Origin: Fidelibacterota bacterium
Lineage (GTDB): Bacteria > Fidelibacterota > Marinisomatia > SCGC-AAA003-L08 > JACNLC01
Length of the DNA stretch: 38,448 nt
Assembly (NCBI GenBank): GCA_024277615.1
Contig: JAJRUW010000002.1
Span: 1 to 38,448 of the forward strand
Direction of reading: 5' to 3'
A program made the translations under genes and the position numbers. Each line of letters begins with the position of its first letter. The first letter of the stretch is position 1. The notes below the pieces were generated by a model. It saw only the letters and a list, made by a program, of their open reading frames with translations, was not told where the DNA came from and did no database searches. Below are positions 4,326 to 36,910 of this stretch, piece after piece.

Positions 4326-5495
4326 ATGGGGAAAATTACACCAGTATTGGGAAAACTTCTTAATCTTTTTCCGAGATACGAATTTGAAAAGTTAGAAGAT
4401 CAGTATAATGCAAATTATTATACCAAATACTTTACCGGTTGGCAACAGTTGATCGTGTTGTTGTTTTCCCAGATCAGCGGTAAAGATAGTATGAGGGATA
4501 TTGAGACATCTACTCTTGTACATCAGCGTAAATGGTATCATATTGGCTTTAGAGGAGTAAAGCGCAGCACTCTATCAGATGCGATGAAAAGCCGACCTTA
4601 TCAGATATATGAGGGTCTCTTCTACCGATTATTAGAGAAATGCCAGTCCGTAATACCCAAGCATCGATTCCGATTCAAGAATCAACTTTTTAGCATGGAC
4701 TCAACTCTTATTGAATTATGTTTGTCCGTATTTCCATGGGCGAAGTACAGAAAATGTAAAGGCGCTATTAAACTTCATTATCTGCTCAATCATTCTGGGA
4801 TGATTCCAAGTTTCATGGTGCTAACCGTTGGTAAACACCATGATGTCCGCGTAGCAAAGAGCGAAGAAGGATTGGATTTTGCTCTCTTACCGGACAGCAT
4901 ATTGGTGATGGACAAGGCGTACATTGATTATAAGTGGTTGTATTCTCTTACACAACGAACAGTGTATTTTGTAACGCGTGCAAAATATAACATGGCTTAT
5001 ATTGTCACCGGACAGCATAAATCATTGAAGAATAAGAATATTCTACGAGATGACATCGTTCTCCTGACAGGCCTTAAAAAGACTAAATATCCTGAAAAAA
5101 TGCGTCTGGTGGGATATGTATCACCGGATAATGGCAAATACTAAGAGTACATCACAAATAATTTTCACCTTGCTGCAAGCACCATAGCAGGGATTTATAA
5201 AGATCGCTGGCAGATTGAAATTTTCTTCAAATGGATTAAAAGCAATTTGAAAATCAAATCCTTTTTAGGAACAAGTTATAATGCTGTTTTGAGTCAGATC
5301 TGGGTGGCGATGTGTTATTATCTTCTACTGAGGTATATCAAGTTCCAGACTAAACTATCGCAGTCAATAACCAATCTGGGGATTATGATCAGTGGGGTGA
5401 TGATGGAAAGAGTGAATCTTATTGATATTCTGTCGTTAACACCTGTGACGATACGAGCGGTGAAAGTGACTGATAATCAATTGACACTATTTTAA
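4326..5495 (+). pseudogene. IS4-family DDE transposase interrupted by an in-frame TAA
   Basis: The frame reads through 390 codons with a single TAA at codon 273 (5142-5144). Before it lies a DUF4372-like N-terminus, then the first catalytic Asp in FSMDSTLIEL (D125) and the second in LVMDKAYID (D196). After it the same frame continues EYITNNFHLA and then YKDRWQIEIFFKWIK. That gives the exact IS4 signature Y-x2-R-x3-E-x6-K (Y291, R294, E298, K305), including the third catalytic residue. The stop therefore removes E298 from the main product. No frameshift is needed to join the halves, so a point mutation (for example TAT or TAC to TAA) is the simplest cause. GAGGAG precedes the ATG and the C-terminus ends 13 bp inside the right repeat. 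Confidence 0.9.
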
Positions 5496-22862: not shown

Positions 22863-23993
22863 ATGATGATACCATTCAACAAACCATATATCACTGGCAA
22901 CGAACTTCAGTATATGATGCAGGCCGTGCAATCAGGAAAAATATCGGGGGACGGCATGTTTTCAGAAAGATGTCATGCTTTCTTTCAGGAAAAATTTGGG
23001 TTTGGGCGTTGCTATTTAACGACGAGCTGTACGGATGCTCTCGAAATGATAGCTATATTGTTGAACATCGGCCATGGAGATGAAGTCATTATTCCGTCAT
23101 TTTCATTCGTCTCACTCGCAAATGCATTTGTGCTTCGCGGAGCTGATATTGTTTTTATTGACAGTAACAGTAAAAACCCCAATATTGATGTGGAAGCGTT
23201 GGAAGGCCTGATAACTCCCAGAACCAAGGTCATTGCGCCGATTCATTATGCGGGTATTGCTGCAGATATGGACAGAATTATTGAATTGTGTCAGAAATAT
23301 GATCTTTTCCTGATCGAAGACGCTGCCCAGGCTATCGATTCAAAATTTAATGATAAACCTCTCGGCAGTATTGGAGATCTGGGGGCCATGTCCTTTCATG
23401 AAACAAAAAACATTATTGCAGGTGAAGGCGGATTATTAATCGTCAATAATGACAAATATATTGAGAGAGCGGAAATTATCCGGGAAAAGGGGACGAATCG
23501 TTCAAAGTTTTTCCGGGGAGAGATTGATAAATATGGTTGGATTGATATAGGATCTTCTTTCCTGCCTTCAGACCTGATCGCTGCATTTTTATATGCTCAA
23601 CTTGAAAATATCAACTCAATTCAAACACGCAGAGCCGAGATATGGAACCGTTATTATGGCGCACTCAAGCCTTTGGAAAATGATGGGAAACTGATTTTAC
23701 CTCATTTACCTGACTTTGCAACGAACAATTATCATATCTTCTATTTTGTCTGTGAAACTCATGGAGTCCGGACTAAATTGATGAGATTTCTTGCGGAGAA
23801 AAGTATTAATGCAGTATTTCATTATCAACCATTGCATTTATCACCGTATTTTAAAGACAAATATAAAGGTCCGGAGCTTGTAAATAGTGTCCGATACGGG
23901 GACTGTCTTCTGAGATTACCCATGTATTATGAACTGACTCCGGATATACAGGATGAGGTTATCGATTCAATTATTAAATTTTACCAGAATTAA
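22863..23993 (+). CDS. wecE: dTDP-4-amino-4,6-dideoxygalactose transaminase (WecE/RffA-like)
   Basis: 376-residue PLP aminotransferase of the DegT/DnrJ/EryC1 family. It resembles E. coli WecE closely: MIPFNKPYITGNELQYM at the start, SGKISGDGMF, LTTSCTDALEM, IPSFSFVSLANAFVLRGADIVF and HYAGIAADMD. The PLP site SFHETKN has K182, with IEDAAQ (D153) also present, then IREKGTNRSKFFRG and AVFHYQPLHLSP. WecE aminates dTDP-4-keto-6-deoxyglucose with glutamate to give dTDP-4-amino-4,6-dideoxygalactose (dTDP-Fuc4N). The enzymes making its substrate (RmlA, RmlB) are not in the window. The WecD-like acyltransferase at 33744 is the natural partner. Two adjacent ATGs make the start uncertain by one residue. 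Confidence 0.9.
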   Translation: MMIPFNKPYITGNELQYMMQAVQSGKISGDGMFSERCHAFFQEKFGFGRCYLTTSCTDALEMIAILLNIGHGDEVIIPSFSFVSLANAFVLRGADIVFIDSNSKNPNIDVEALEGLITPRTKVIAPIHYAGIAADMDRIIELCQKYDLFLIEDAAQAIDSKFNDKPLGSIGDLGAMSFHETKNIIAGEGGLLIVNNDKYIERAEIIREKGTNRSKFFRGEIDKYGWIDIGSSFLPSDLIAAFLYAQLENINSIQTRRAEIWNRYYGALKPLENDGKLILPHLPDFATNNYHIFYFVCETHGVRTKLMRFLAEKSINAVFHYQPLHLSPYFKDKYKGPELVNSVRYGDCLLRLPMYYELTPDIQDEVIDSIIKFYQN

Positions 23994-24023
23994 TCCGTTT
24001 AACAATTATTTAAAGAAATCTAT

Positions 24024-24791
24024 ATGAAAGCTGTTATTTTAGCCGGCGGTTTTGGGACCAGACTATCAGAAGAGACCAAGGTTAAACCGAAACCCATGGT
24101 CGAAATTGGGGGCAAGCCGATTCTCTGGCACATAATGAAGATATTTTCTGCTTATGGAATCAAGGAATTTATCATCGCCCTTGGGTACAAAGGAGAATAT
24201 ATTAAAGAATATTTTTATAATTATTCAGCTATTAATAACGATATTACTGTCGATCTGCTGACAGGCGAAACCACCATTCACGATGGTGAAAATCCCGACT
24301 GGAAAATACATCTCATTGATACGGGCCTTAATACGCAAACCGGAGGCAGACTGAAGCGCTTAGAACACTGGTTTAAAGATGATGAATCTTTTTATTTCAC
24401 TTATGGCGATGGCGTTGCTGACATTGACCTCAACGAATTGTATAAGTTCCACCAGTCCCATGGCAGGCTGGCAACCGTGACAACAGTAAAATCACCGGCT
24501 CGATTTGGGAGAATCACATTTAACGACGATATCGTAACTGAATTTTATGAAAAGTCAAATCAGGCTGCCGGTTGGATCAATGGCGGATATTTTGTGTTAA
24601 GGAAGGATGTGATCAAATATATCGATGGCGATGACACACCATGGGAGAGGGATCCGGTCGAAAGATTGGTAGCTGACGGATAGTTAATGGGGTTTAAACA
24701 TGCAGGGTTCTGGTCCTGCATGGACACAATTAAAGAGAAAAATATTTTAGAACGGCTTTGGCAATCAGGCAGGGCTCCCTGGGTAATATGA
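24024..24791 (+). pseudogene. rfbF: Glucose-1-phosphate cytidylyltransferase with in-frame amber stop
   Basis: The first 219 residues match RfbF: MKAVILAGGFGTRLSEET, KPKPMVEIGGKPILWHIM, TGGRLKRLEHW and FTYGDGVADIDL. The enzyme makes CDP-glucose from glucose-1-phosphate and CTP. A TAG at 24681-24683 ends the reading frame after LVADG. The same frame then continues LMGFKHAGFWSCMDTIKEKN and LERLWQSGRAPWVI to a TGA at 24789-24791, which is the usual RfbF C-terminus. Restored length is 255 residues, normal for the family. At the stop position relatives have Glu or Gln (as in GELMAF), so a single G/C-to-T change explains it. An in-frame ATG lies three bases after the TAG, so reinitiation could make a second piece. 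Possible explanations are a recent null mutation, a split enzyme or a sequencing error. Confidence 0.9.
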
Positions 24792-24810
24792 TAATCACTT
24801 ATTTAGTACA

Positions 24811-25860
24811 TTGAAAATGAAAATACTGTTGACAGGAATTGATGGATATATAGGATCAATTGTCGGTCCGCGTCTTGTTGCTCTGGGGTATGATGTGGCC
24901 GGGTTGGACACGGGTTATTACCGCGACGGCAATCTCTGTCACCACTACTATGAGTTTTTCCCACAGATTATTAATAAAGATCTTCGTCTCATTACTGCCA
25001 AAGACCTTGAAGGATTCGATGCTGTAATTCATCTGGCGGAATTATCCAATGACCCTTTGGGAGAATATATTCAGAAGGTCACCTACGACATCAACCATGT
25101 GGGATCGGTTAAACTTGCTGAAAACAGTAAAAAAGCCGGTGTAAAAAAGTTCATTTATACATCCTCATGCAGTGTGTATGGAGTCGGGAATGAAGCAATC
25201 AGAACTGAAAAATCAGGTGTAAATCCGCAGACCGCCTATGCCAGATGCAAGGTGATGGTTGAACATGATGTAGCGGAATTGGCTGATGAACACTTTTCGC
25301 CGACATTTTTGAGGAATGCCACTGCGTATGGAATTTCCCCAAGAATGAGGTTTGATATTGTGTTGAATAATCTGGCCGGACTGGCCTGGACAACAGATGT
25401 GATCAAACTTTCAAGTGATGGAACTCCCTGGAGGCCCATTGTCCACATCAGAGACATTGCAAAAGCTATTGAGTGCGTCCTCCAGGCTCCGCTGGAAACA
25501 ACTCATAATCAAATATTTAATGTTGGTGATACAGAAGAGAATTTTCAAATCAAAGAAATTGCAGAAGCAGTTGCCGAAGAATTTCCCAATTGCGCTTTGA
25601 CGATTGGGCAAAGTGAAGGCGATAACAGAAGTTATCGTGTATCATTTGACAAGATTAATACACAACTCCCCGGGTTTCGGTGTGAGATGAACCTGAAAAA
25701 GGGAGCAAAAGAGTTGAAAGAACTGTTTAAACGGATAGAGCTGGATAAAACAATTTTCAATTTCAGAGCATTTACAAGACTTAAACAGATAAAATATTTG
25801 CTGGATTCAAACCAGGTGGATGAAAATCTTTTATGGGGGAAAACGAATTTTGAGCGGTAA
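24811..25860 (+). CDS. NAD-dependent sugar epimerase/reductase (extended SDR)
   Basis: 349 residues. The dinucleotide-binding motif is ILLTGIDGYIGSIV at the N-terminus. The catalytic region reads FIYTSSCSVYG and later YARCKVMVE, giving the Ser and Tyr-x3-Lys. The residues after the serine pair are Cys-Ser rather than the Thr-Asp-Glu triad of sugar 4,6-dehydratases, so this enzyme is more likely a ketoreductase or epimerase than RfbG. It may reduce the 4-keto group at the end of the CDP-branched-sugar path. It lies 19 bp after the restored rfbF frame. The start could be the second Met (MKMKILL), two codons later. Confidence 0.8.
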   Translation: MKMKILLTGIDGYIGSIVGPRLVALGYDVAGLDTGYYRDGNLCHHYYEFFPQIINKDLRLITAKDLEGFDAVIHLAELSNDPLGEYIQKVTYDINHVGSVKLAENSKKAGVKKFIYTSSCSVYGVGNEAIRTEKSGVNPQTAYARCKVMVEHDVAELADEHFSPTFLRNATAYGISPRMRFDIVLNNLAGLAWTTDVIKLSSDGTPWRPIVHIRDIAKAIECVLQAPLETTHNQIFNVGDTEENFQIKEIAEAVAEEFPNCALTIGQSEGDNRSYRVSFDKINTQLPGFRCEMNLKKGAKELKELFKRIELDKTIFNFRAFTRLKQIKYLLDSNQVDENLLWGKTNFER

Positions 25861-25880
25861 TAACAAATAATTGATAGTAC

Positions 25881-26414
25881 ATGAAATTAGTCCGGACAAA
25901 ACTAAGCGGCGCCTACATAATTGAGGCTGAAAAAATTGAAGATGACAGGGGTTTCTTTGCACGAACGTGGTGTGAAGAAGTTTTTTTAAAGAAGGGTTTG
26001 ATCAGTAAAATTGTGCAAGCAAACCTGTCTCATAATCATAAAGCCGGTACCCTTAGGGGTATGCACTATCAGCGTTCTCCCCACGGAGAGGCCAAAATAG
26101 TTAGATGCATCAGGGGAGCAATATTTGATGTAATTGTCGATTTAAGGCCGGACTCAAAAACTTATCTAAAATGGTTTGGTATAGAACTGAGCGCCGAAAA
26201 TTATAAATCCCTGTATGTTCCGGTGAACTTTGCGCATGGATTTCAAACCCTCACTGATGATGCTGAGATATTTTATCTCGTCAGTGAGTACTACCATCCC
26301 GAATCCTCTACCGGGTTGCGATATGACGATCCGGCGATTGAAATTCGCTGGCCTCTTGGAGTTACCGAAATCTCTGAAAAAGATTCTGCCTGGCCTGATA
26401 TTATTACACATTAA
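25881..26414 (+). CDS. RmlC-like dTDP-4-dehydrorhamnose 3,5-epimerase family protein
   Basis: 177 residues, usual length for the family. Marks include DDRGFFARTWCEE, GTLRGMHYQ with the catalytic His (H62), FDVIVDLRPDSKTYLKW, LYVPVNFAHGFQTL, and FYLVSEYYHPE with the tyrosines of the active-site region (132-138). Members epimerise C3 and/or C5 of 4-keto-6-deoxy NDP-sugars. Here it sits between an SDR and a sugar C-methyltransferase and after a cytidylyltransferase, so its substrate may be a CDP- rather than dTDP-sugar. Spacing is 20 bp after the SDR gene and 10 bp before the methyltransferase start. Confidence 0.88.
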   Translation: MKLVRTKLSGAYIIEAEKIEDDRGFFARTWCEEVFLKKGLISKIVQANLSHNHKAGTLRGMHYQRSPHGEAKIVRCIRGAIFDVIVDLRPDSKTYLKWFGIELSAENYKSLYVPVNFAHGFQTLTDDAEIFYLVSEYYHPESSTGLRYDDPAIEIRWPLGVTEISEKDSAWPDIITH

Positions 26415-26424
26415 ACAGCTATTT

Positions 26425-27675
26425 ATGGAAAAATTAAATAACAATTTGAATTGCAGATTTTGTGGACATCCCCTGGACCACGATTTCATTGATTTGGGTG
26501 TATCACCTTTATCCAACTCCTATCTGACTGAAAATGACCTTCAAAAAGTAGAACGGTTTTATCCACTGCATGCTTTTGTATGCAATAATTGTTTTCTGGT
26601 GCAACTTGGAGAATATGGAAATCCTAAAGAGATTTTCTCCGACTATGCTTATTTTTCATCTTATTCAACATCCTGGCTGGAGCATGCAAAAAATTATACA
26701 AATTCGATGATCGGGAGATTCGGGTTTGATAAAAACAGCAAGGTCATTGAAATCGCAAGTAATGACGGATATTTACTGCAGTACTTCAAAGCAAAGGGAA
26801 TAAATGTTTTGGGCATTGAACCTGCTTCGAATGTTGCAAAAGTTGCAGTTGAGAAAGGTATCCCCACCAGGGAGATCTTCCTGGATTCATCAACCGGCGC
26901 ACAACTCAATAATGAGGGGGTATCCGCAGATCTGTTAATTGGGAATAATGTTCTGGCTCACAATCCGAATTTGAATGATTTTGTAATCGGAATGCGTTCA
27001 ATACTGAACGAAAAAGGTGTGTTGACTATGGAGTTTCCGCACTTGCTAAAACTGATGAAGTATAAACAATTCGATACCATATATCATGAACATTTTTCCT
27101 ATTTTTCTTTTGCAACTGTCCAGACGGTTTTTAAAAATCATGGACTATTTATTTTTGATGTAGAAGAACTCCCCACACATGGCGGTTCAATTCGGATTTA
27201 TGCCTGCCATGAATCAGATAAATCTAAAGCAAAGACAGACGCTGTGGAGCTTCTGCTAAAGAAGGAAAAAAAATATGGACTTGACAATATAGACCATTAT
27301 CTGACCTTTAAAAATCAAATTATAAAATTGAAAAATTCAATTTTAAATTTTTTACTGAAGGTTGCAGAAGAAAAAAAATCGGTTGCGGCCTATGGTGCTC
27401 CGGCAAAGGGTAATACACTGTTGAACTATTGCGGAATCAAAAGTGATCTGATTAATTTTACAGTTGACATTAGTCCTCATAAGCAAGGCTTGTATTTGCC
27501 GGGTTCCAGAATACCAATTTACGAACCGGAAAGAATCCGTGAAGAACAACCGGATTATGTCGTAATCCTGCCCTGGAACTTAAGCACGGAGATCATGGAA
27601 CAAATGTCATACATCCGCAAATGGGGTGGGGAATTTGTCACATTTATTCCGGAGGTTAGGGTGCATCATGAGTAA
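26425..27675 (+). CDS. NDP-sugar C-methyltransferase (TylCIII/TcaB9-like)
   Basis: 416 residues from the ATG at 26425. A longer frame exists upstream but overlaps the epimerase gene out of frame, and the N-terminal zinc domain starts only after this ATG. That domain has paired cysteines C10, C13, C53 and C56 (CRFC, CNNC). The SAM-binding part reads VIEIASNDGYLLQYF, and YHEHFSYFS carries the His-rich catalytic segment typical of 3-C-methyltransferases acting on 4-keto NDP-sugars. A C-terminal domain contains AYGAPAKGNTLLNYCG. Such enzymes create branched sugars such as mycarose, yersiniose-type or related residues. Context (RfbF, epimerase, two SDRs) supports synthesis of a C-methyl deoxysugar. 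Confidence 0.9.
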   Translation: MEKLNNNLNCRFCGHPLDHDFIDLGVSPLSNSYLTENDLQKVERFYPLHAFVCNNCFLVQLGEYGNPKEIFSDYAYFSSYSTSWLEHAKNYTNSMIGRFGFDKNSKVIEIASNDGYLLQYFKAKGINVLGIEPASNVAKVAVEKGIPTREIFLDSSTGAQLNNEGVSADLLIGNNVLAHNPNLNDFVIGMRSILNEKGVLTMEFPHLLKLMKYKQFDTIYHEHFSYFSFATVQTVFKNHGLFIFDVEELPTHGGSIRIYACHESDKSKAKTDAVELLLKKEKKYGLDNIDHYLTFKNQIIKLKNSILNFLLKVAEEKKSVAAYGAPAKGNTLLNYCGIKSDLINFTVDISPHKQGLYLPGSRIPIYEPERIREEQPDYVVILPWNLSTEIMEQMSYIRKWGGEFVTFIPEVRVHHE

Positions 27676-27689
27676 CTCGGTTAATAATT

Positions 27690-28970
27690 ATGGTTGAGTC
27701 AGAGTTGAGGGCCTTAATGACTGAGCTCTACCCAATTTGCCGCAGCATTACCGGTAATGGTGTCAGAGATTCACTAAAAATCTTGCAGCGATATATACCG
27801 ATAAAGATACATGAAGTACCTACCGGCACAAAAGCCTTTGATTGGACCGTACCCAAGGAGTGGAATATCAAAGACGGCTGGATTAAAGATGCGTCAGGAA
27901 AAAAAATTATTGATTTTAAATCCTCCAATTTGCATGTTTTAAATTATTCTGCTCCGATCAAAAACAAAATCGGGCTGGAGGAATTAAAAGAACACATATT
28001 TACTGATCTTGATCATCCGGACTGGATACCCTATAGGACCTCGTATTATCAGGAAACCTGGGGATTTTGTATGGCTCATCACCAGTTCATTGAACTCAGC
28101 CCCGGACAATACGAAGTTAACATAGATACCACCCTGAAAAATGGGCATTTAACTTACGGAGAGTATTTCATTAAAGGCGAATCCGATGAAGAAATGATCA
28201 TATCCTGCCATATTTGTCACCCCTCTTTATGTAACGATAATTTATCCGGGATCACATTGGCAACATTTCTTGCCAGGCAGATGAGACAAAGGAAACTGAA
28301 AAAATCGTTCAGATTTCTTTTCATACCCGGTACAATCGGGTCGATCGTCTGGTTGAGCCGAAATGAACATTTGTTCTCAAATATTAAGCAGGGGTTGGTG
28401 CTGGCAAATCTTGGTGATAATGGCCCCATAGTTTATAAAAAAAGCAGAATCGGAAACTCTGAGCTAGACAAAACAGTAGAGTTTGTATTGAAAAACCGGC
28501 AAGTAGATTACTCGATACGTGATTTTATGCCATACGGATATGATGAGAGACAATATTGTTCGCCGGGTATTAATCTACCGGTTGGCCGTATAACCAGAAC
28601 ACCACATAACGAATATCCGGAATATCATACTTCAGCTGATAACCTCGATTTTGTGGATGATTCCAGCCTGGCTGTGTCTTTGGAGATTTTACTTGAGATT
28701 ACCGAGCTGGTGGATGGTAATCGTAAATACATGAATCTGCAACCCAAATGTGAACCTCAGCTTGGACGGAGAGGTTTATATGAAGCTCTTGGAGGAAAAT
28801 CCGGAGATAAGATAAATCAGCTTGCAATGCTGTGGGTGCTGAATTATTCGGATGGAGAGCATTCATTGCTGGATATTTCCAACCGCTCCAATATCGAGTT
28901 CAAAATAATTTCTGATACGGCCGACCTGCTCCGGGCACATGGTTTACTGGAGGAGGTTGTATATAGATGA
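27690..28970 (+). CDS. DUF4910 aminopeptidase-like protein with C-terminal winged helix
   Basis: 426 residues. The N-terminus ELYPICRSITGNGVRDSLKIL and the middle match the DUF4910/DUF2172 family, which has an M28 zinc-peptidase fold. Putative zinc ligands are seen in ISCHICHPSLCNDNLSG (His, Asp), ANLGDNGP (Asp) and EYHTSADNL (His). Where M28 peptidases have a Glu-Glu pair (the general base), this protein reads FLFIPGTIGSI, so ordinary peptidase chemistry is doubtful. The last 60 residues (INQLAMLWVLNYSDGEHSLL onward) look like a winged helix. Genes of this family occur in surface-sugar clusters, but the role is unknown to me. It overlaps the following SDR by four bases, so it is part of the same pathway unit. 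Confidence 0.82.
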   Translation: MVESELRALMTELYPICRSITGNGVRDSLKILQRYIPIKIHEVPTGTKAFDWTVPKEWNIKDGWIKDASGKKIIDFKSSNLHVLNYSAPIKNKIGLEELKEHIFTDLDHPDWIPYRTSYYQETWGFCMAHHQFIELSPGQYEVNIDTTLKNGHLTYGEYFIKGESDEEMIISCHICHPSLCNDNLSGITLATFLARQMRQRKLKKSFRFLFIPGTIGSIVWLSRNEHLFSNIKQGLVLANLGDNGPIVYKKSRIGNSELDKTVEFVLKNRQVDYSIRDFMPYGYDERQYCSPGINLPVGRITRTPHNEYPEYHTSADNLDFVDDSSLAVSLEILLEITELVDGNRKYMNLQPKCEPQLGRRGLYEALGGKSGDKINQLAMLWVLNYSDGEHSLLDISNRSNIEFKIISDTADLLRAHGLLEEVVYR

Positions 28971-29689
28971 GCCTTGCAGGTAAAACAGCCGTAATTACGG
29001 GAGCCAGCAGCGGTATCGGCTACGCAATTGCCTGTCATATGGCAAGCCTAAAAATCAATTTGGTTCTGTTGGGCAGAAATACCAGCAAATTGGAAGAAAT
29101 GAGGTCTGTTTATCAGGACCGGGTATGTGTTGATGTATTCAGGACAGATTTTCTCGAAGAATCACAAATTCAGGAAACTGCCCATCAAATTATTGAAAAT
29201 ATCGATACTATTGATATCCTTGTTCATAGCGCCGGATTGTATTCGAGAGGAGAATTCACCGCTTCATCAATGTCTGCATTGGATGAGCTTTACTTAGTGA
29301 ATTTAAGAGCTCCTTTTTTATTAACAAAACTTCTGCTGCCAACGATCAAAAAAAAAGAAGGTCAAATTATTGTTATTAACTCAAGTTGCGGCTTAAAAGC
29401 AAATGCCGGAATAAGCCAGTACTCTGCCGTCAAACATGGCGTAAAGGCCATGACCGATAGTCTTCGTGGGGAGGTGAATAAAGACGGGGTTAGAGTCTTA
29501 AGTCTATTTTTAGGAAGGACCGCAACGCCGATGCAGGCTTTCGTTCACAAGTTGGAGAAAAAATCATATCATCCTGCTAATTTTATTCAACCCGAGGATG
29601 TTGCAGAAATTGTAATTTCGAGTCTTAATATTCCCCATCGTACCGAGATTACGGATATAATTATTAGACCTACAATGAAATTAAGCTGA
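28967..29689 (+). CDS. Short-chain dehydrogenase/reductase
   Basis: 240 residues of the classical SDR type. The cofactor motif TGASSGIGYAIACHMA, the loop HSAGLYSRG (in place of NNAG), the catalytic serine in VINSSCGLKA and the Tyr-x3-Lys in YSAVKHG are all present. The enzyme oxidises or reduces a hydroxyl/keto group with NAD(P). Its ATG overlaps the DUF4910 stop, so both are translated together. In context it may reduce a keto group on the branched sugar or act on the DUF4910 product; the substrate is not determined by sequence. Confidence 0.85.
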   Translation: MSLAGKTAVITGASSGIGYAIACHMASLKINLVLLGRNTSKLEEMRSVYQDRVCVDVFRTDFLEESQIQETAHQIIENIDTIDILVHSAGLYSRGEFTASSMSALDELYLVNLRAPFLLTKLLLPTIKKKEGQIIVINSSCGLKANAGISQYSAVKHGVKAMTDSLRGEVNKDGVRVLSLFLGRTATPMQAFVHKLEKKSYHPANFIQPEDVAEIVISSLNIPHRTEITDIIIRPTMKLS

Positions 29690-29749
29690 GTTAAAAATGT
29701 ACAGCGGAACGATGAACCCCGATCCAAATAAGTGCAGAACTGACGAAAA

Positions 29750-30787
29750 ATGAAGGCAGAAAGAGAAATGGAAGATCAGTCCCGGCAAAATCTTATTTTC
29801 ATCTTTTCATTGCCACGGTCTGGTTCTACATTGCTCCAACGGTTATTAGCTGCTCACACAAAGATAAAAACCTATGCAGAACCCTATCTGCTGCTACCTT
29901 TGGCAGAATTGGACAACCTGTCAGATCAATATTGGTTCTACGGGAAGCGCTGTAACACAGGTGTGTTAGATCTCATTGATGGTCTTCCCGGTGGAAGAGA
30001 TGAATTTAATCAAAAGTTAAACAAGTTCATTAAAAGTATTTATTTTTCATTTTTGGGGAAAAACGAAAATTATTTCCTCGATAAAACTCCACATAATTAC
30101 TATATAATTCGTCAGATCAGTAACATTTTCCCCGAGGCGAAATTTATTTTCATTTTCCGTAATCCCCTGGCGGTTTATTCATCATTTAAACAATCATTCT
30201 ACAGGGGGCATAATATTACCAATAATTATCTGGTAAAGGATCTCTACACGGGACCGGGCAATTTATACGATGGATATGCACTTTTAAAAGATAAAGCCGT
30301 CAAAGTTATTTTTCGGGACCTTCTTACAAACCCAGAACGGGAGTTGAATAAAATCATGAAATATCTGGATTTAGATTATGAACCGGGTATGATGAAAGAA
30401 TTTCAAAATGTCACCTTCAAAGGGCATGTCAATTGGGATAAAACTTTTAAATTTAATTCTGTAAATTCGCAACCTGTTTCAAAATGGAAAAAATATACCG
30501 ATTCATGGTTTGAAAAATCAATCAACAGGAAATACATTACATCAATCGATGAAAGATATATTTTAGAGTCAGGGAATTCTCTCAAGGGCTTATTAAAAGA
30601 ACTACGGTCGATTAAAGTGGCAAAATTGGGTATCGCAAACATGCTTGATTATTGTTTTGCCTATCTCTTTAGAAATTTTGTGAGCCAGGAAACACGCTTA
30701 AAACTGCAGAAGATGTTTGCTCATTTTTTTTATGTTTTACATTTGTACGGGGTTGCCGACTACCTGGATAGTTATGGGAATTTTTAG
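29750..30787 (+). CDS. PAPS-dependent sulfotransferase family protein
   Basis: 345 residues. The 5'-phosphosulfate loop FSLPRSGSTLLQRLL (about 19-33) and the 3'-phosphate segment KFIFIFRNPLAVYSSF identify a PAPS-binding fold. The remainder is divergent, with basic and aromatic stretches typical of carbohydrate sulfotransferases. It probably transfers sulfate to a glycan residue. No PAPS synthesis gene lies in the window. The frame starts MKAEREMEDQ; the second ATG at 29768 has AGAAAGAGAA upstream, so it may be the true start. It is 60 bp after the SDR gene and transcribed with the cluster. Confidence 0.82.
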   Translation: MKAEREMEDQSRQNLIFIFSLPRSGSTLLQRLLAAHTKIKTYAEPYLLLPLAELDNLSDQYWFYGKRCNTGVLDLIDGLPGGRDEFNQKLNKFIKSIYFSFLGKNENYFLDKTPHNYYIIRQISNIFPEAKFIFIFRNPLAVYSSFKQSFYRGHNITNNYLVKDLYTGPGNLYDGYALLKDKAVKVIFRDLLTNPERELNKIMKYLDLDYEPGMMKEFQNVTFKGHVNWDKTFKFNSVNSQPVSKWKKYTDSWFEKSINRKYITSIDERYILESGNSLKGLLKELRSIKVAKLGIANMLDYCFAYLFRNFVSQETRLKLQKMFAHFFYVLHLYGVADYLDSYGNF

Positions 30788-30824
30788 TGGGATCTCGTTG
30801 CTGGTCATTACTTAGGAGCTGACT

Positions 30825-31781
30825 TTGTTGGAATCATTGAAAAACAGACTTTCGGAAAAATTATTATGGAAACTCTGGCGCATTAAGGATGCTGTCTCCT
30901 ATTCATTTATTAAAATATTAAACCTGCTCGGCTTTAATGTATATAGTATATCTGATTTTTATTCACCGATCCCTGTACTCAGTGAGCTCAAGAAAAATAA
31001 AGCCAGATGGAGTAAACCCAGTCAGTTGGTTGGCATCACTGTGAATATAAATGAGATGAAAAAATTAGTATCCGAACTTGCAACACTGTACGGCGATGAA
31101 TTCGGTAAATTGGATTATCAGACCGAGAGTCGAAAAGGGTTTGGCAGAGGGTTTACGGAGATTGATGCGGAATTTGTGTATTTCATGATCAGATACTTTA
31201 AACCCAAAAGATATTTTGAAGTCGGATCAGGGTTGTCAACGCATTTTGCCAGTCTCGCTGCGCAGCAAAATCAGCTTGATGGTGCAAAAACCAAAATTGA
31301 CTGTATCGAACCCTTCCCATATCAAAATCTGTATCGTGTCCCCGGAATAACGATCATTAAAAATGAAGTACAGGATGTGGAGTTCGATAAATTTGAAGAG
31401 CTGGGAGCAGGTGATATATTTTTTATTGATTCCACACATGTTGTCAAGATTGATGGTGACGTACCCTATCTATATCTTGAGGTCCTGCCGAGATTAAAGA
31501 AGGGTGTAATTGTTCATATACACGATATTGCCTTCCCGTACAACACACCTTATCCAACGGACTCATACATATTTAACCGTAAATCTAAACCCTGGTATTT
31601 TACGGAAGTGATGCTGCTGCAGGCCTTTTTGGCCTTCAATGACTCGTATAAAATATTAACATCTATACCTTACATTCACTTTTATGATGAAAAATTTCTT
31701 CAAAATACTTTAAATAATTACCATGAGATTTATCATCGCATGTATCCGCCATGTTCAATCTGGCTGCAAAAAATTAAATAG
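30825..31781 (+). CDS. Class I SAM-dependent methyltransferase (Methyltransf_24-like)
   Basis: 318 residues. The SAM motif is RYFEVGSGLSTHFASLAA near residue 135, followed by IDCIEPFPY, and DIFFIDSTHVVKIDGDV with the acidic loop, then IVHIHDIAFPYNTPYP. The 80-residue N-terminal part is hydrophobic and basic without a clear function. Relatives in glycan clusters modify sugars or lipid carriers; the target is unknown. The start is TTG at 30825 with AGGAG seven bases upstream; no ATG occurs in the first 80 codons except in the catalytic part, so a non-ATG start is required. Confidence 0.78.
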   Translation: MLESLKNRLSEKLLWKLWRIKDAVSYSFIKILNLLGFNVYSISDFYSPIPVLSELKKNKARWSKPSQLVGITVNINEMKKLVSELATLYGDEFGKLDYQTESRKGFGRGFTEIDAEFVYFMIRYFKPKRYFEVGSGLSTHFASLAAQQNQLDGAKTKIDCIEPFPYQNLYRVPGITIIKNEVQDVEFDKFEELGAGDIFFIDSTHVVKIDGDVPYLYLEVLPRLKKGVIVHIHDIAFPYNTPYPTDSYIFNRKSKPWYFTEVMLLQAFLAFNDSYKILTSIPYIHFYDEKFLQNTLNNYHEIYHRMYPPCSIWLQKIK

Positions 31782-31804
31782 CAGACTCATTCAATCCATA
31801 ATTG

Positions 31805-32767
31805 ATGCCTGAAATAACCTTAATTATTACGACCTATAATAAGGCTGCCCTCTTAAACGAAGCTCTCAAGTCTGTATTGAACCAAACGGAATCGATACAC
31901 CGTATAATCGTCTTAGACAACTGTTCTTCCGATGGGACCGAAAAAATCGTAGATAAAGTATCAGGAGTTGAATATATCAAAAATTCAAAAAATATCGGAA
32001 TGATCAACAACTGGAACAAGTGTTTTCAGATTTGTAAATCGCAGTTTCTGTGTATCTTGCATGATGATGATATTCTGGATAAAAGGTGGCATGAAAAATG
32101 GGAAAAGGCCTTAACAAGGGAAAATGAAGACTGCGCTTTTTATTTTTCAGCAGCCGGTATGATCAATAACAAACGGAGGTTGTTATCTGAAAGCAAATTG
32201 TTCGATAGTCGTAAATATCCGCCAGGAGCGATATACAGGGATCTTGTCAAAGCACGAATGTTCAGCTTCCCGGTTTCCGGTACAACCATTTACAACATGT
32301 CGGTTCTAACTGACGAGGATCGGTTTTTTAGGCAGTGGGACAGCAAGATCAATACATATCCCGATATTGAATTTCATGACAGAATTGCTAAAAAATATCC
32401 GGTATATTATTTAAACGAAAGACTGTTTTACAGCCGACAGCAATATGCTCCTAACCGTTCCGAAACACTGGGTGTGGATACAAATAAAGCATACTATAAA
32501 TCATATATCGCTGCTGTTCTTCCTTTTTTGATCAGAATGTACGCTGACAAAGAGTTCGCAAAAGAGAATTTAAACAAATTATGGTTGCATTATTATTTTA
32601 TCTCCGTAAGTTTTGCAATGCTTTACAGGGATAAAACCTTTATATCAAATGTGTTTGAGATAAAGAAAAAATCAAAACTGGATATTTCGTACCTTTTTTT
32701 GCCGGGTATTTGGTTTAAAGATTTTTTTAAATATCTCCATCGGCAGATTTTCCGCGTGTACATTTGA
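31805..32767 (+). CDS. Family 2 glycosyltransferase
   Basis: 320 residues from the ATG at 31805; a TTG one codon earlier is the only alternative nearby. The GT-A fold signature is ITLIITTYNKAALLNEALKSVLNQT, then VLDNCSSDGTEKIV, and LHDDDILDKRWHEKW with the DxD-type metal/nucleotide-binding acids. It transfers a sugar from an NDP donor to a growing glycan at the cytoplasmic face. The C-terminal third has no clear membrane helices. Donor and acceptor cannot be read from the sequence. Confidence 0.87.
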   Translation: MPEITLIITTYNKAALLNEALKSVLNQTESIHRIIVLDNCSSDGTEKIVDKVSGVEYIKNSKNIGMINNWNKCFQICKSQFLCILHDDDILDKRWHEKWEKALTRENEDCAFYFSAAGMINNKRRLLSESKLFDSRKYPPGAIYRDLVKARMFSFPVSGTTIYNMSVLTDEDRFFRQWDSKINTYPDIEFHDRIAKKYPVYYLNERLFYSRQQYAPNRSETLGVDTNKAYYKSYIAAVLPFLIRMYADKEFAKENLNKLWLHYYFISVSFAMLYRDKTFISNVFEIKKKSKLDISYLFLPGIWFKDFFKYLHRQIFRVYI

Positions 32768-32804
32768 CAACAAAATTATTTAGTTATTAACAGAAATTTA
32801 TTTT

Positions 32805-33740
32805 ATGGAAATCTCAATTGTAACCTCGCTTTTTCATTCTGACAGATATATAGAAGAATTTTATATAAGGATGACTAAGGCAGTGAAGCAGATCACCGAA
32901 GATTATGAGATCATCTTCGTTAACGATGGCTCACCGGACAGGTCGCTGGAGAAAGCGGTCAATCTTTATAACCGTGATGAAAAAATTACGATTATTGACC
33001 TGTCACGGAATTTCAGCCATCATAAAGCCCTGCTGACAGGATTAAAATACGCTTCCGGAGATAAGATTTTCCTAATTGACTCTGACCTTGAGGAAAGTCC
33101 CGAATTAATTGGAGAATTTTATAACGAGTTTATAAACAGTGACGCCGACTCCGTTTACGGTGTTCAAAAGAGGCGAAACGGGCAAATAGCATCAAAGATC
33201 ACAGGCAATCTCTTTTATATATTTTTCAATTATCTTTCGGGATATAAAATTGCCAGGAATCAGATGACGGTAAGGTTGATGAGCCGTAGATTTGTTCAAA
33301 GTCTCTTAAAATTCAGAGATAAAGAGGTCTTTCTGCCGGGGCTAATCTCAATGACAGGTTTTGTACAAATCCCATTTTGGGTTTCAAAAAAATATAAAGG
33401 CAATTCAACTTATACATTTAAACGAAAGATATCTCTTTTTGTAAATTCCATTACATCATTCAGCAGCAAGCCCCTACTGTTTATATTCTATTCCGGGATA
33501 TTGATTTTTAGTATATCAACTATCTTTGCTTTGAATCTGATTATTAAAAGAATTTTTTTCCGGGTTTATCTGACCGGTTGGCCCTCGCTGATGGTATCAA
33601 TTTGGCTGTTGGGAGGTATTACTATACTAAGTATTGGAATTATAGGTATATATCTCTCAAAAATTTTCATGGAAACTAAAGACAGACCTTTAACAATCGT
33701 GAGAAGAATCTACTCACATGCTGAAGATACGGAAAATTAG
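32805..33740 (+). CDS. Membrane family 2 glycosyltransferase (GtrB/DPM1-like)
   Basis: 311 residues. The GT-A domain contains ISIVTSLFHSDRYIEEFY, FVNDGSPDRSLEKA, SRNFSHHKALLTGL and IDSDLEESPE (DxD; relatives usually have DADLQD). Two C-terminal membrane helices follow (about 223-245 and 261-285). This is the layout of polyprenyl-phosphate glycosyltransferases such as GtrB and ArnC, which load a sugar on undecaprenyl phosphate for transfer outside the cytoplasm. It suggests one cluster sugar is added to the glycan in the periplasm. It lies 37 bp after the other glycosyltransferase and 3 bp before the GNAT gene. Confidence 0.88.
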   Translation: MEISIVTSLFHSDRYIEEFYIRMTKAVKQITEDYEIIFVNDGSPDRSLEKAVNLYNRDEKITIIDLSRNFSHHKALLTGLKYASGDKIFLIDSDLEESPELIGEFYNEFINSDADSVYGVQKRRNGQIASKITGNLFYIFFNYLSGYKIARNQMTVRLMSRRFVQSLLKFRDKEVFLPGLISMTGFVQIPFWVSKKYKGNSTYTFKRKISLFVNSITSFSSKPLLFIFYSGILIFSISTIFALNLIIKRIFFRVYLTGWPSLMVSIWLLGGITILSIGIIGIYLSKIFMETKDRPLTIVRRIYSHAEDTEN

Positions 33741-33743
33741 AAT

Positions 33744-34511
33744 ATGATGCAGTCAGTTGTAATAGATGACAATAACAGGCTGGACTTTTACGACACCCCC
33801 TGGAATACCAGAAGTCTGGGAATGAAAACCAGAGAAATATGCGCTTTAGAGTTCTCACATGTCGAATCGCTTAATACGCTGTTAACCAAACTTGATTATA
33901 AAAATGAAGTTGACGACATTCAATTGATCTGTTTAAGGATTCAAGGACAGAACCAGCCTTTAAAAATAACCCTGCAACAAAATGGTTATCGTTTTGTCGA
34001 GACATCTTTAAAGATGAAATTAAATAATCTTGAGCGTACAGATTTGTACAAAGAATTCGGGACAAATATTAACATAGAACAACCGGCAGAGCAGGATTTT
34101 GCTCAAATCCGTAACATTGCCAGGGATGACTTTGCATTCGGGCGTTTTCATGAAGATCCGTTAATTCCAGGGGAACTGGCCAGAAACAGATATTATCATT
34201 GGATTGATGAACTCACAAAACAGGGAAAGGAATTTCTTATATTCAAAAAGAACAACCTGGTTATTTCATTCCTGGCTTATCAAAAAATGAATTCGGATGC
34301 AGAGCTCATCCTTGGAGGCAGCAAAACATCCCATGGTTATATATCATATTATTTTTGGAGTACCATTCTGGATTATTTTAAAAAATCAGGTATCAGGAAA
34401 ATTCGAACTACTATCTCTGCGGCAAATTTGGGCATCTTAAATCTTTATATTAGATTTGGTTTTACAGTTGATGAAACTTTATTCGGTTTTCACAAACAGT
34501 ATGACCGGTAA
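33744..34511 (+). CDS. WecD-like GNAT N-acyltransferase for an amino sugar
   Basis: 255 residues with a C-terminal GNAT fold. The layout parallels WecD (RffC), the dTDP-Fuc4N N-acetyltransferase: an N-terminal segment FYDTPWNTRSLGMKTREI, the mid-protein AFGRFHEDPLIPGELARNRYYHWID, and the terminal TTISAANLGILNLYIRFGFTVDET typical of the GNAT acyl-CoA region. The classical Q/RxxGxG/A loop is modified (GGSKTSHGYISYY), so the acyl donor may differ. The partner WecE-type transaminase is at 22863. The adjacent acyl carrier protein, reductase and ligase suggest the acyl group may come from a carrier protein. Two ATGs in tandem start the frame. Confidence 0.72.
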   Translation: MMQSVVIDDNNRLDFYDTPWNTRSLGMKTREICALEFSHVESLNTLLTKLDYKNEVDDIQLICLRIQGQNQPLKITLQQNGYRFVETSLKMKLNNLERTDLYKEFGTNINIEQPAEQDFAQIRNIARDDFAFGRFHEDPLIPGELARNRYYHWIDELTKQGKEFLIFKKNNLVISFLAYQKMNSDAELILGGSKTSHGYISYYFWSTILDYFKKSGIRKIRTTISAANLGILNLYIRFGFTVDETLFGFHKQYDR

Positions 34512-34570
34512 TGGTTTAAAGAAGTAAAGAGTGATCAATTTTAACTTATATAGAAACCAGTGAAGGGTAT

Positions 34571-34864
34571 ATGAAAAAACAATTGGGAAAAATGATCTTC
34601 GATCAGCTTGTTGATATCAAGGATGATTATTTGGATTTAAAAGAAGAGCAGACAATTCCCATTTACGGGATGGATGGAAAACTTGACAGTCTTGAGCTTG
34701 TGAATCTGATTGTCAACCTCGAGGAAGCGGTGTACGCTAACTTTGGTATTAATGTCACCTTAGCCGACGAAAAGGCATTCAGCCAAAAAAGTTCACCTTT
34801 TCTCACGGTTCACAGCCTTTCAGAATATATAAAGACCTTATTGGCGGCAGTATCCGATGAATAA
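34571..34864 (+). CDS. Acyl carrier protein
   Basis: 97-residue acidic, helical protein. The phosphopantetheine-attachment motif is YGMDGKLDSLELVNLIVNLEE, with the modified serine at S40 in DSLELV, then a helix rich in Glu and Val. It is longer than housekeeping AcpP and diverges from it, so it is a specialised carrier. The stop overlaps the following FabG-like gene by eight bases. With the ligase at 35564 and the GNAT at 33744 it forms a dedicated acyl-transfer module. No phosphopantetheinyl transferase is visible; the host enzyme is assumed. Confidence 0.85.
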   Translation: MKKQLGKMIFDQLVDIKDDYLDLKEEQTIPIYGMDGKLDSLELVNLIVNLEEAVYANFGINVTLADEKAFSQKSSPFLTVHSLSEYIKTLLAAVSDE

Positions 34865-35558
34865 TATATTTTTGATTTCCGGTACACGAAAAGGGATTGG
34901 CCGGGAACTATGTCTGCATTTTCTTTCAAAAGGGGCAACGGTTATCGGCTGCAGCAGAGGAGAGGGCAGTATTCAAAACGAGAATTACTGTCATTATTCT
35001 TTAGATGTTTCGGATGAAACGGCGGTAACGGCAATGGTACGGGAAATTGCAGAAAAGTTTGGTAGAATTGATGTACTTATTAATAATGCCGGAATCGCAT
35101 CAATGAACCATATACTTTTGACCCCTGTTTCAAGCGTAAAAAAGATTATCAGCACAAATTTTATCGGTACATTTATTATGACCCGGGAAGCGGCCAAATT
35201 AATGACCAAAAACAAATATGGCAGAATTGTTAATATGGCAACGGTAGCCACTCCACTCAGATTAATGGGCGAGGCAATCTATGCTTCCAGCAAAGCGGCG
35301 ATTGTTAATTTTACAGAAATAGCTTCAAAAGAACTGGCCGAATTTAATATTACGGTTAATGCTGTCGGACCCACACCGGTTAAGACTGATTTGATCAAAA
35401 ATGTACCCAAAGCAAAAATGGAATCTCTTTTACAATTACAGGCAATCCATCGATATGGGACCTTTAAAGACATCTTAAACTGTATTGAATTCTTTATTGC
35501 TCCCGGAAGTGATTTTATTACCGGGCAAACGCTCTACCTCGGAGGTGTGAATCCATAG
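34857..35558 (+). CDS. FabG-like 3-oxoacyl-ACP reductase family SDR
   Basis: 233 residues with GTRKGIGRELCLHF cofactor motif, NNAGIASMNH, and Tyr-x3-Lys in YASSKAA. The position of the catalytic serine reads VNMATVATP, so the serine is replaced by threonine, a conservative but unusual change. The C-terminal GQTLYLGGVNP fits the family. It is translated across an eight-base overlap with the carrier protein gene, arguing that it reduces an acyl group held on that carrier, for example to a 3-hydroxyacyl group. Alternatively it acts on a sugar. No ketosynthase or dehydratase is adjacent. Confidence 0.83.
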   Translation: MNNIFLISGTRKGIGRELCLHFLSKGATVIGCSRGEGSIQNENYCHYSLDVSDETAVTAMVREIAEKFGRIDVLINNAGIASMNHILLTPVSSVKKIISTNFIGTFIMTREAAKLMTKNKYGRIVNMATVATPLRLMGEAIYASSKAAIVNFTEIASKELAEFNITVNAVGPTPVKTDLIKNVPKAKMESLLQLQAIHRYGTFKDILNCIEFFIAPGSDFITGQTLYLGGVNP

Positions 35559-35563
35559 CAGAT

Positions 35564-36910
35564 ATGCACTGGTTCATCGAAACCCTCTCTAAATTTAACC
35601 GCAACACAGCATTCATCTATAAAGGTAACAGTGTCGGGTACGATGAGTTAAAGCTTCTTATCAGCCGCTGCGACGGCTGGCTTAAAAACGAAAAAATAAC
35701 CCCGGGAGCGGTGGTTTTACTGCAGGGGGATTATGCACCTTATACGGTTGCAATGCTGTTGGCGTTGCTTGAAAATAAAAATATAATAATTCCAGTTGTC
35801 ACTCAACTGACTGAAGATGTCCGGCAAAAGATTGACCTCACAAATGCAGCTTGGCTGATAAAAATGTCGGATGCAAAACCGATCTTTTCAGAATTAGATA
35901 CAAATAATGTTGATTCCCCTCTAATTGATAGATTAAAAAAAAATAAATGTCCGGGTCTGATACTTTTCAGCAGTGGAAGTACGGGAAAATCCAAGGCGAT
36001 GGTCCATGATCTTAATAAATTGCTGGAAACCTATCGTAATAAATCTGAAAAGAAATTAAATATACTCATTTTCATGGGCTTTGACCATATAGGTGGTTTG
36101 GACACACTTTTCAGGGCCCTGTCAATCGGCGGGACAATTACTATTGCCACGGACAGATCTCCCCGAAATATTTGTTCATTAATTGAAAAGTACAAAGTAA
36201 ATATTCTACCTGTCACGCCCACATTTTTGAATTTGCTTCTATTGGATGAATCCTACAAAAATTATGACTTCAGTTCACTCAAGATAATTGGCTTCGGAGC
36301 CGAGCCTATGCCAACATTCCTTCTGAAGAAAGTGCGAACAATATTTCCGGATATTGAATTACAGCAGAAATTCGGAACCAGCGAAACTAATGCCATCCGT
36401 ATAAAAAACCGGGCTCCCGACAGTCTTTTCTTTAAGATTGACGACCCTCATGCCGCCTATAAAATCGTGGACAACGAATTATGGTTAAAAAGTACTTCTC
36501 AAATACTTGGTTATCTGGATGCTTCAACCCCTGCCCTTGATGAAGAAGGCTGGTTCAGAACGGGTGACCTTGTGGAAACGGCAGATGATGGAAGTATTAA
36601 AATCGTCGGGCGCATCAAAGGAGTGATCAATGTAGGTGGAGAAAAAGTATTACCTGAAGAAGTTGAAGCCCTGCTGATGGGGATGGATGAGATTAGTGAT
36701 GCACTGGTGTACGGGGAAGCAAATCCGCTTACAGGACAAATTGTCGTTGCGGATATCATACCCGCCCGGCAGACAAAAGTGACTGATATTAAGAAGTGTA
36801 TCCGCACTTATTGTAAAAATAAACTTGAAAGTTACAAAATACCAGTGAAAGTGTTTTTAGTCGATAAACTTGATTACGGTAAAAGAATGAAAAAAAGACG
36901 CTATAAATAA
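35564..36910 (+). CDS. ANL-superfamily acyl/aminoacyl-AMP ligase
   Basis: 448 residues. The adenylation motifs are present: P-loop LFSSGSTGKSKAMVHD (about 134-149), FGTSETNAI (270-278), GWFRTGDLVETADDGSIKIVGR with D335, and the C-terminal catalytic lysine in YGKRMKKRRY (K440). It activates a carboxylic acid as an acyl-AMP and passes it to a thiol, here most likely the carrier protein encoded two genes upstream. At about 450 residues it is shorter than typical acyl-CoA synthetases and of a size with carrier-loading ligases. It starts 5 bp after the reductase stop and is the last gene of the cluster. The acid substrate cannot be predicted. Confidence 0.87.
   Translation: MHWFIETLSKFNRNTAFIYKGNSVGYDELKLLISRCDGWLKNEKITPGAVVLLQGDYAPYTVAMLLALLENKNIIIPVVTQLTEDVRQKIDLTNAAWLIKMSDAKPIFSELDTNNVDSPLIDRLKKNKCPGLILFSSGSTGKSKAMVHDLNKLLETYRNKSEKKLNILIFMGFDHIGGLDTLFRALSIGGTITIATDRSPRNICSLIEKYKVNILPVTPTFLNLLLLDESYKNYDFSSLKIIGFGAEPMPTFLLKKVRTIFPDIELQQKFGTSETNAIRIKNRAPDSLFFKIDDPHAAYKIVDNELWLKSTSQILGYLDASTPALDEEGWFRTGDLVETADDGSIKIVGRIKGVINVGGEKVLPEEVEALLMGMDEISDALVYGEANPLTGQIVVADIIPARQTKVTDIKKCIRTYCKNKLESYKIPVKVFLVDKLDYGKRMKKRRYK

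Follow-up and report, generated by a model that had tools for sequence, protein, structure and literature searches.

The DNA analysed here, the window, is a stretch of 38,448 nt from a Fidelibacterota bacterium (GenBank assembly GCA_024277615.1, JAJRUW010000002.1) and makes up the whole of contig G000:C47 in a genome of 2.4 Mb that is 77% complete. Positions 22863-36910 hold a run of 15 genes on the same strand, the last four of which encode a GNAT acyltransferase, an acyl carrier protein (ACP), a short-chain dehydrogenase/reductase (SDR) and an ANL ligase. A first-pass annotation had read these genes as an acyl-transfer module at the end of a Fuc4N (4-amino-4,6-dideoxygalactose) type sugar cluster. 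The open reading frames confirmed four adjacent plus-strand genes, with an 8-nt overlap between those for ACP and SDR:

33744-34511, + strand: GNAT acyltransferase, 255 aa, a remote relative of WecD; proposed N-acyl transfer to a 4-amino sugar
34571-34864, + strand: dedicated acyl carrier protein, 97 aa, with serine motif DSLELV; supported by alignment with the ACPs of homologous loci
34857-35558, + strand: FabG-like SDR, 233 aa, with N101, T129, Y142, K146 and a GCSR arginine (Pfam adh_short, 154 bits)
35564-36910, + strand: ANL (AMP-forming) acid ligase, 448 aa, proposed to load the ACP (Pfam AMP-binding, 113 bits; AMP-binding_C, 44 bits)

The ACP gave no Pfam match even at E 10 and a weak NCBIfam match (TIGR00517, 19.2 bits against a cut-off of 70.45). 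In the ACPs of homologous loci, the D/E-S serine and the block following it (A-x-S..xSPF in most) are conserved. Judged by this alignment, the ACP and its annotated DSLELV motif are real despite the weak profile scores. The SDR scored below the cut-offs of the FabG equivalogs (NF004198, 164 vs 296 bits; TIGR01830, 162 vs 297.75 bits). Its N101, Y142 and K146 are invariant among 16 sequences, position 129 is Thr or Ser by alignment and R34 is nearly invariant; an arginine such as that of the GCSR motif is typical of NADP(H) users. The ligase retains the P-loop (SSGSTGKSK) and the lysine noted in the first-pass annotation, and both are conserved, as is R446, which together with that lysine (K443) makes up the invariant C-terminal pair. 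Its AlphaFold2 model (pLDDT 83) had MenE as the top Foldseek match (5gtd, E 1.6e-32, TM 0.80). The nearest folds of this predicted structure, MenE and 4-coumarate ligase, do not fix the substrate.

Searches with the SDR yielded further loci of the ACP-SDR-ligase set, hereafter the core. All three genes were present, usually contiguously, at 20 of 20 loci: the window, 11 other bacterial chromosomal loci, one Rhizobium plasmid (L049) and seven viral contigs (L050-L055, L074). The chromosomal loci belong to Neomarinimicrobiota, Bacteroidota (L020, L022 and L063-L066, assigned to the phylum or to an order of it) and Pseudomonadota (L072, L073; L019 and L067 are order-level relatives of a Rhodobacterales record). 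Because the make-up of the core, and mostly its gene order, are kept at loci with about 33-64% protein identity, we do not regard the association as chance. Deviations in order were found at L066 and L073, where other genes lie between SDR and ligase, at L049, where a GNAT gene separates ACP and SDR, and at L020 and L022, which have a gap there. L066 and L073, the most divergent members, also have a gene for ketosynthase III; L073 has one for a MaoC-SDR protein as well.

The core is rare, with the SDR detected in 5 of 295, 2 of 296 and 3 of 399 sampled genomes (E 1e-45). Among 245 genomes of the phylum, ACP and ligase were each found only in the genome of the window and in G021, and both were absent from the one other genome listed of the window's genus. 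In G021, the core genes lie together on a 3203-base contig and their products share 41% (ligase), 56% (SDR) and 33% (ACP) identity with those of the window. A genome-collection scan with two SDRs, which are poor search patterns, left 4 close matches after 18 ordinary SDRs had been set aside; single-protein scans of viral sequences with the SDR and with the GNAT gave no match.

Where both trees resolve, those of SDR and ligase contained the same well-supported groups (L019 with L067, L051 with L074, and L018 with L020, L022 and L065). Since the distance correlation was significant for ACP-SDR only, we argue for co-inheritance from these shared clades and from gene order. In the ligase tree, the window clustered with two loci that came out of the Bacteroidales search, L063 and L064, and the other Neomarinimicrobiota core with Bacteroidota. 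This separation points to horizontal acquisition of the two cores in separate events.

An acyltransferase candidate accompanies the core at 19 of the 20 loci and lies upstream of the ACP gene at 14. It is of the hexapeptide type at L018, L019, L020, L022, L054, L065, L067 and L072, and, by weak score or by kinship, at L051 and L074. A GNAT is found in the window, L052, L053 and L073 and, below cut-off, at L049, L050 and L063, and an AAC(3)-type enzyme at L055 and L064 (in the latter on the opposite strand, two genes away). At L066, the downstream GNAT-like gene is split. This variation in class indicates that the transferase is interchangeable and that the part which makes the donor stays the same. 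We propose that the core is a portable donor-making unit and that the neighbouring acyltransferase sets the acceptor. The annotated reading as a dedicated set for loading, reducing and transferring an acyl group was thus supported, whereas a tie to WecE, or to amino sugars in general, was not: no WecE above cut-off was detected in four other genomes tested, and the core occurs without amino-sugar genes, in the stretch read, at loci such as L049, L050, L054, L063 and L072. The first-pass annotation had itself named such an occurrence as refuting, and for the module as a class it applies. As WecE accompanies the core in the window only and several loci have no amino-sugar genes, the core is not Fuc4N-specific, and the Fuc4N link of the module comes from the window cluster.

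The order GNAT-ACP-SDR-ligase, which the first-pass annotation had suggested looking for in other genomes, recurred at the phage loci L052 and L053. There, genes for terminase large subunits lie near the four genes and near a NeuB-type synthase (L052:5926-6882; L053:1315-2199, each adjoining the terminase gene), and these phages may make a nonulosonic acid. L050, L054 and L055 carry phage-like genes, judged by eye, and IMG/VR classes the contigs of L051 and L074, both of them glycan clusters, as viral. At three of the bacterial loci (L020, L022 and L065) the core is part of one conserved cluster of RfbF, epimerase, RmlC, RfbH-like dehydrase, reductase, DegT, glycosyltransferase, hexapeptide transferase and core, with a flippase-looking gene after the ligase gene. 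The RfbF-epimerase-RmlC set is common to these loci, L019 and the window. We did not keep the idea that the core belongs with this set: three of the five loci are one lineage.

In the window, the run opens with genes for WecE, a glucose-1-phosphate cytidylyltransferase, a GalE-like epimerase, RmlC, a C-methyltransferase and a DUF4910 protein, continues with an SDR, a sulfotransferase, a methyltransferase and two family-2 glycosyltransferases, and ends with the module. Two of these genes bear on its function:

22863-23993, + strand: WecE, dTDP-4-amino-4,6-dideoxygalactose transaminase, by NCBIfam profiles; proposed source of the acceptor dTDP-Fuc4N
32805-33740, + strand: polyprenyl-phosphate glycosyltransferase, ArnC/PgfS-like (Glycos_transf_2, 81.5 bits)

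WecE passed both curated cut-offs (NF008687, 535.8 bits, cut-off 375; TIGR02379, 484.9 bits, cut-off 434.85), which confirms the annotated Fuc4N-type context, and has solved relatives (4piw, E 1e-118; 6blg, E 1e-114). RmlB is encoded elsewhere in the genome (G000:C100:19259-20266; 513.8 bits, cut-off 365.1). With both enzymes present, the genome can supply dTDP-4-keto-6-deoxyglucose and, from it, dTDP-Fuc4N. The ArnC/PgfS-like glycosyltransferase matched NF047588 (PgfS, 177 bits) and NF007986 (ArnC, 115 bits) over nearly the full length, both below cut-off. Its gene ends 3 nt before that for the GNAT, and it may be the enzyme that moves the acylated sugar onto a lipid carrier. In GC content, the module (0.389) is the same as the sugar cluster (0.388).

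WecE makes dTDP-Fuc4N, and in the enterobacterial common antigen pathway of E. coli it is established that WecD acts on this sugar nucleotide with acetyl-CoA as donor, without a need for ACP, SDR or ligase. The pathway shares WecE with the window. The window GNAT, annotated as WecD-like, did find its best NCBIfam match in WecD (NF008212, residues 53-250, E 3e-10), but the score of 40.2 bits is so far below the cut-off of 219 that we take the likeness as remote kinship. The second WecD model, TIGR02382, gave 31.6 bits without reaching its cut-off of 195.1, the PseH model gave 17 bits and the Pfam match (19 bits) stayed under the curated cut-off. A stretch F-x-F-x-R-F-H-x-D-P is shared with a GNAT of the same phylum (G118) encoded next to DegT and NeuB. 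This stretch and the remote WecD likeness make a 4-amino sugar nucleotide the most likely acceptor. We dropped the idea that the CoA pyrophosphate loop of the GNAT had been lost through ACP use: the window loop is odd (KTSHGYIS), but core-unlinked relatives (L010, L011) also fail the strict motif.

Gene identities, conservation of the core and the presence of RmlB and WecE are observed. On this basis we hold, with moderate confidence, that the four genes make a non-acetyl acyl group and transfer it to the 4-amino group of dTDP-Fuc4N. We infer each catalytic step, the acid and the use of ACP by the GNAT. The ligase would activate a small carboxylic acid with ATP and load it onto holo-ACP. The SDR would then use NADPH to reduce the acyl group on the ACP, most likely from 3-oxoacyl to 3-hydroxyacyl; the ketosynthase III of the divergent loci L066 and L073, and the MaoC-SDR protein of the latter, support such a reduction. 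Next, the GNAT would take the acyl group from ACP and attach it at the 4-amino position of dTDP-Fuc4N, which RmlA/RmlB and WecE would supply, and the ArnC-like glycosyltransferase may place the acylated sugar on a polyprenyl carrier. That the acid is 3-hydroxybutyryl-like is a guess.

Several findings weigh against this pathway. No ketosynthase III (VioS-type) was found by Pfam among the proteins of the 22863-36910 run and the window is without a ketosynthase, so that the ligase would have to load a 3-oxo acid as such. Further, the FdhC, QdhC and QhbA routes to 3-hydroxybutanoyl amino sugars, which like the proposed one put a hydroxyacyl group onto an amino sugar nucleotide, are described with a transferase and without a dedicated loader, and no dedicated ACP, reductase or ligase is mentioned for their clusters, unlike in the window (PMC4869667, PMC3628348). 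Hence the acid may be a less common one, as the dedicated loader suggests, or the substrate of the SDR may not be ACP-bound. The GNAT itself is far from WecD, shares 23% identity with its best match in the phylum and gave a single-sequence structure model of only pLDDT 42. Finally, the pairwise distances of SDR and ligase did not agree significantly (Mantel r 0.135, a value reached in 964 of 5000 permutations; rank version -0.046).

The core acyl-ACP could instead serve another acceptor, such as one of the CDP-sugars of the cluster, C-methylated or not, or go into an O-acyl ester, with the GNAT merely N-acetylating dTDP-Fuc4N from acetyl-CoA. We consider this somewhat unlikely. It would fit the best match of the GNAT, WecD being an acetyl-CoA user, as well as the prevalence of hexapeptide acyltransferases, many of them O-acyltransferases, as the commonest core partner, and the fact that the RfbF-epimerase-RmlC set, not WecE, is what the five loci named above have in common. 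However, Pfam detected no second acyltransferase in the 22863-36910 run, the GNAT gene lies directly 5' of the ACP gene, as the transferase gene does at 13 other loci, and the phage loci L052 and L053 show the same gene order.

Another view concerns the SDR, whose substrate might be a free metabolite or a sugar nucleotide; ligase and ACP would then load a finished acid for transfer by the GNAT. Most loci are without a ketosynthase, and the SDR falls under all FabG equivalog cut-offs and has a clade motif of its own (GIASMNH). We nevertheless think this unlikely: the SDR gene lies between those for ACP and ligase at nearly all loci, the top-scoring families are FabG and 3-oxoacyl-ACP reductases, and L066 and L073 combine the core with ketosynthase III. 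Least probable, in our opinion, is a small secondary-metabolite or lipid pathway located at the end of the sugar cluster by chance. In its favour, the core homologues of Rhizobium plasmid pT136b are accompanied by two GNATs and a CmlS-type halogenase, and no sugar genes lie there. In the window, by contrast, the module shares a one-strand run with glycosyltransferases, is 3 nt away from the ArnC-like gene and matches the sugar cluster in GC content, and several other bacterial and phage core loci are glycan clusters. The pT136b locus (L049:10741-18364) is on a plasmid typed as conjugative and has transposases upstream.

Further features of the window and of core loci were recorded. The sulfotransferase gene of the sugar cluster (29750-30787; Sulfotransfer_3, 101 bits) suggests a sulfated product. 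The cytidylyltransferase gene (24024-24683) ends at an in-frame TAG, and the apparent expected C-terminal end runs on in the same frame to about 24790. The stop reflects a nonsense mutation or an assembly error; if it is genuine, the cluster may have no working CDP-sugar branch. A transposase gene (DUF4372/DDE) adjoins a secretin-domain gene at 4326-5144. DUF4910/DUF2172 proteins recur by the core (window, 27690-28970; L051:19092-20402; L055:11757-13580), the one of L055 being a fusion with an AAC(3)-type acyltransferase. Campylobacter Cj1295, an aminopeptidase-like polysaccharide protein that may be of the same family, is needed to produce pseudaminic acid in its di-O-methylglyceroyl form (PMC3068675).

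Our literature search found no paper on the exact GNAT-ACP-SDR-ligase set. The view of the first-pass annotation that this set is undescribed stands for the version with WecE and a WecD-like GNAT, which was not found elsewhere, but sets of ACP, reductase and AMP-ligase have already been catalogued. V. cholerae O1 has the tetronate genes rfbKLMNO for perosamine N-acylation, with ACP, ligase, different reductases and a transferase, which we take as a lead. In Aeromonas, sets of ACP, 3-oxoacyl-ACP reductase and AMP-dependent synthetase occur in flagella glycosylation islands (group II, orf1-orf3; PMC7874193), and Acp/FabG/CaiC sets are found in flagellin glycosylation islands of 71-73 enterobacterial strains (PMC4875605). 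Their product is unassigned in both cases, and a liposugar has been suggested (PMC7874193, PMC4875605). These sets resemble the window in combining the three functions in a surface-glycan cluster, a likeness of gene type and annotation. They differ in lying in flagellin glycosylation islands and in the presence of luxE/luxC (and, in Aeromonas, of pse genes), none of which are near the window core; luxE/luxC were not found among the Pfam-scanned window genes, and the contig stops shortly past the module. The viosamine island of P. syringae (vioA, vioB, vioR, vioS, acp) shares with the window a dTDP-4-amino-sugar transaminase, an acyltransferase, a reductase and an ACP (PMC3927599). Mutants in vioR, encoding a 3-oxoacyl-ACP reductase, lose the modified viosamine of flagellin, a sugar that bears 3-hydroxybutyryl on its 4-amino group (PMC3927599). 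The seven ORFs of that island include the ketosynthase III VioS and no ANL ligase, whereas the window has a ligase and no ketosynthase (PMC3927599).

So far, ACP, reductase and ligase genes that occur together in surface-glycan islands have been entered under 'fatty acid synthesis', with no product named. We tentatively put forward, as possible but doubtful, that ACP-SDR-ligase is a mobile cassette of bacterial phyla and phages which makes one particular uncommon acyl-ACP, and that swaps of the acyltransferase among the GNAT, hexapeptide and AAC(3) classes direct the same acyl group to other acceptors, including phage-made nonulosonic-acid precursors. The co-occurrence of the core and NeuB in phages suggests that acylated sugars are synthesised or altered by the phages themselves. 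Being compact, combined with an interchangeable transferase and spread over several phyla and phages, the core offers a minimal four-protein system for identifying the donor in vitro, which would show how cells and phages diversify the acyl groups of their sugars.

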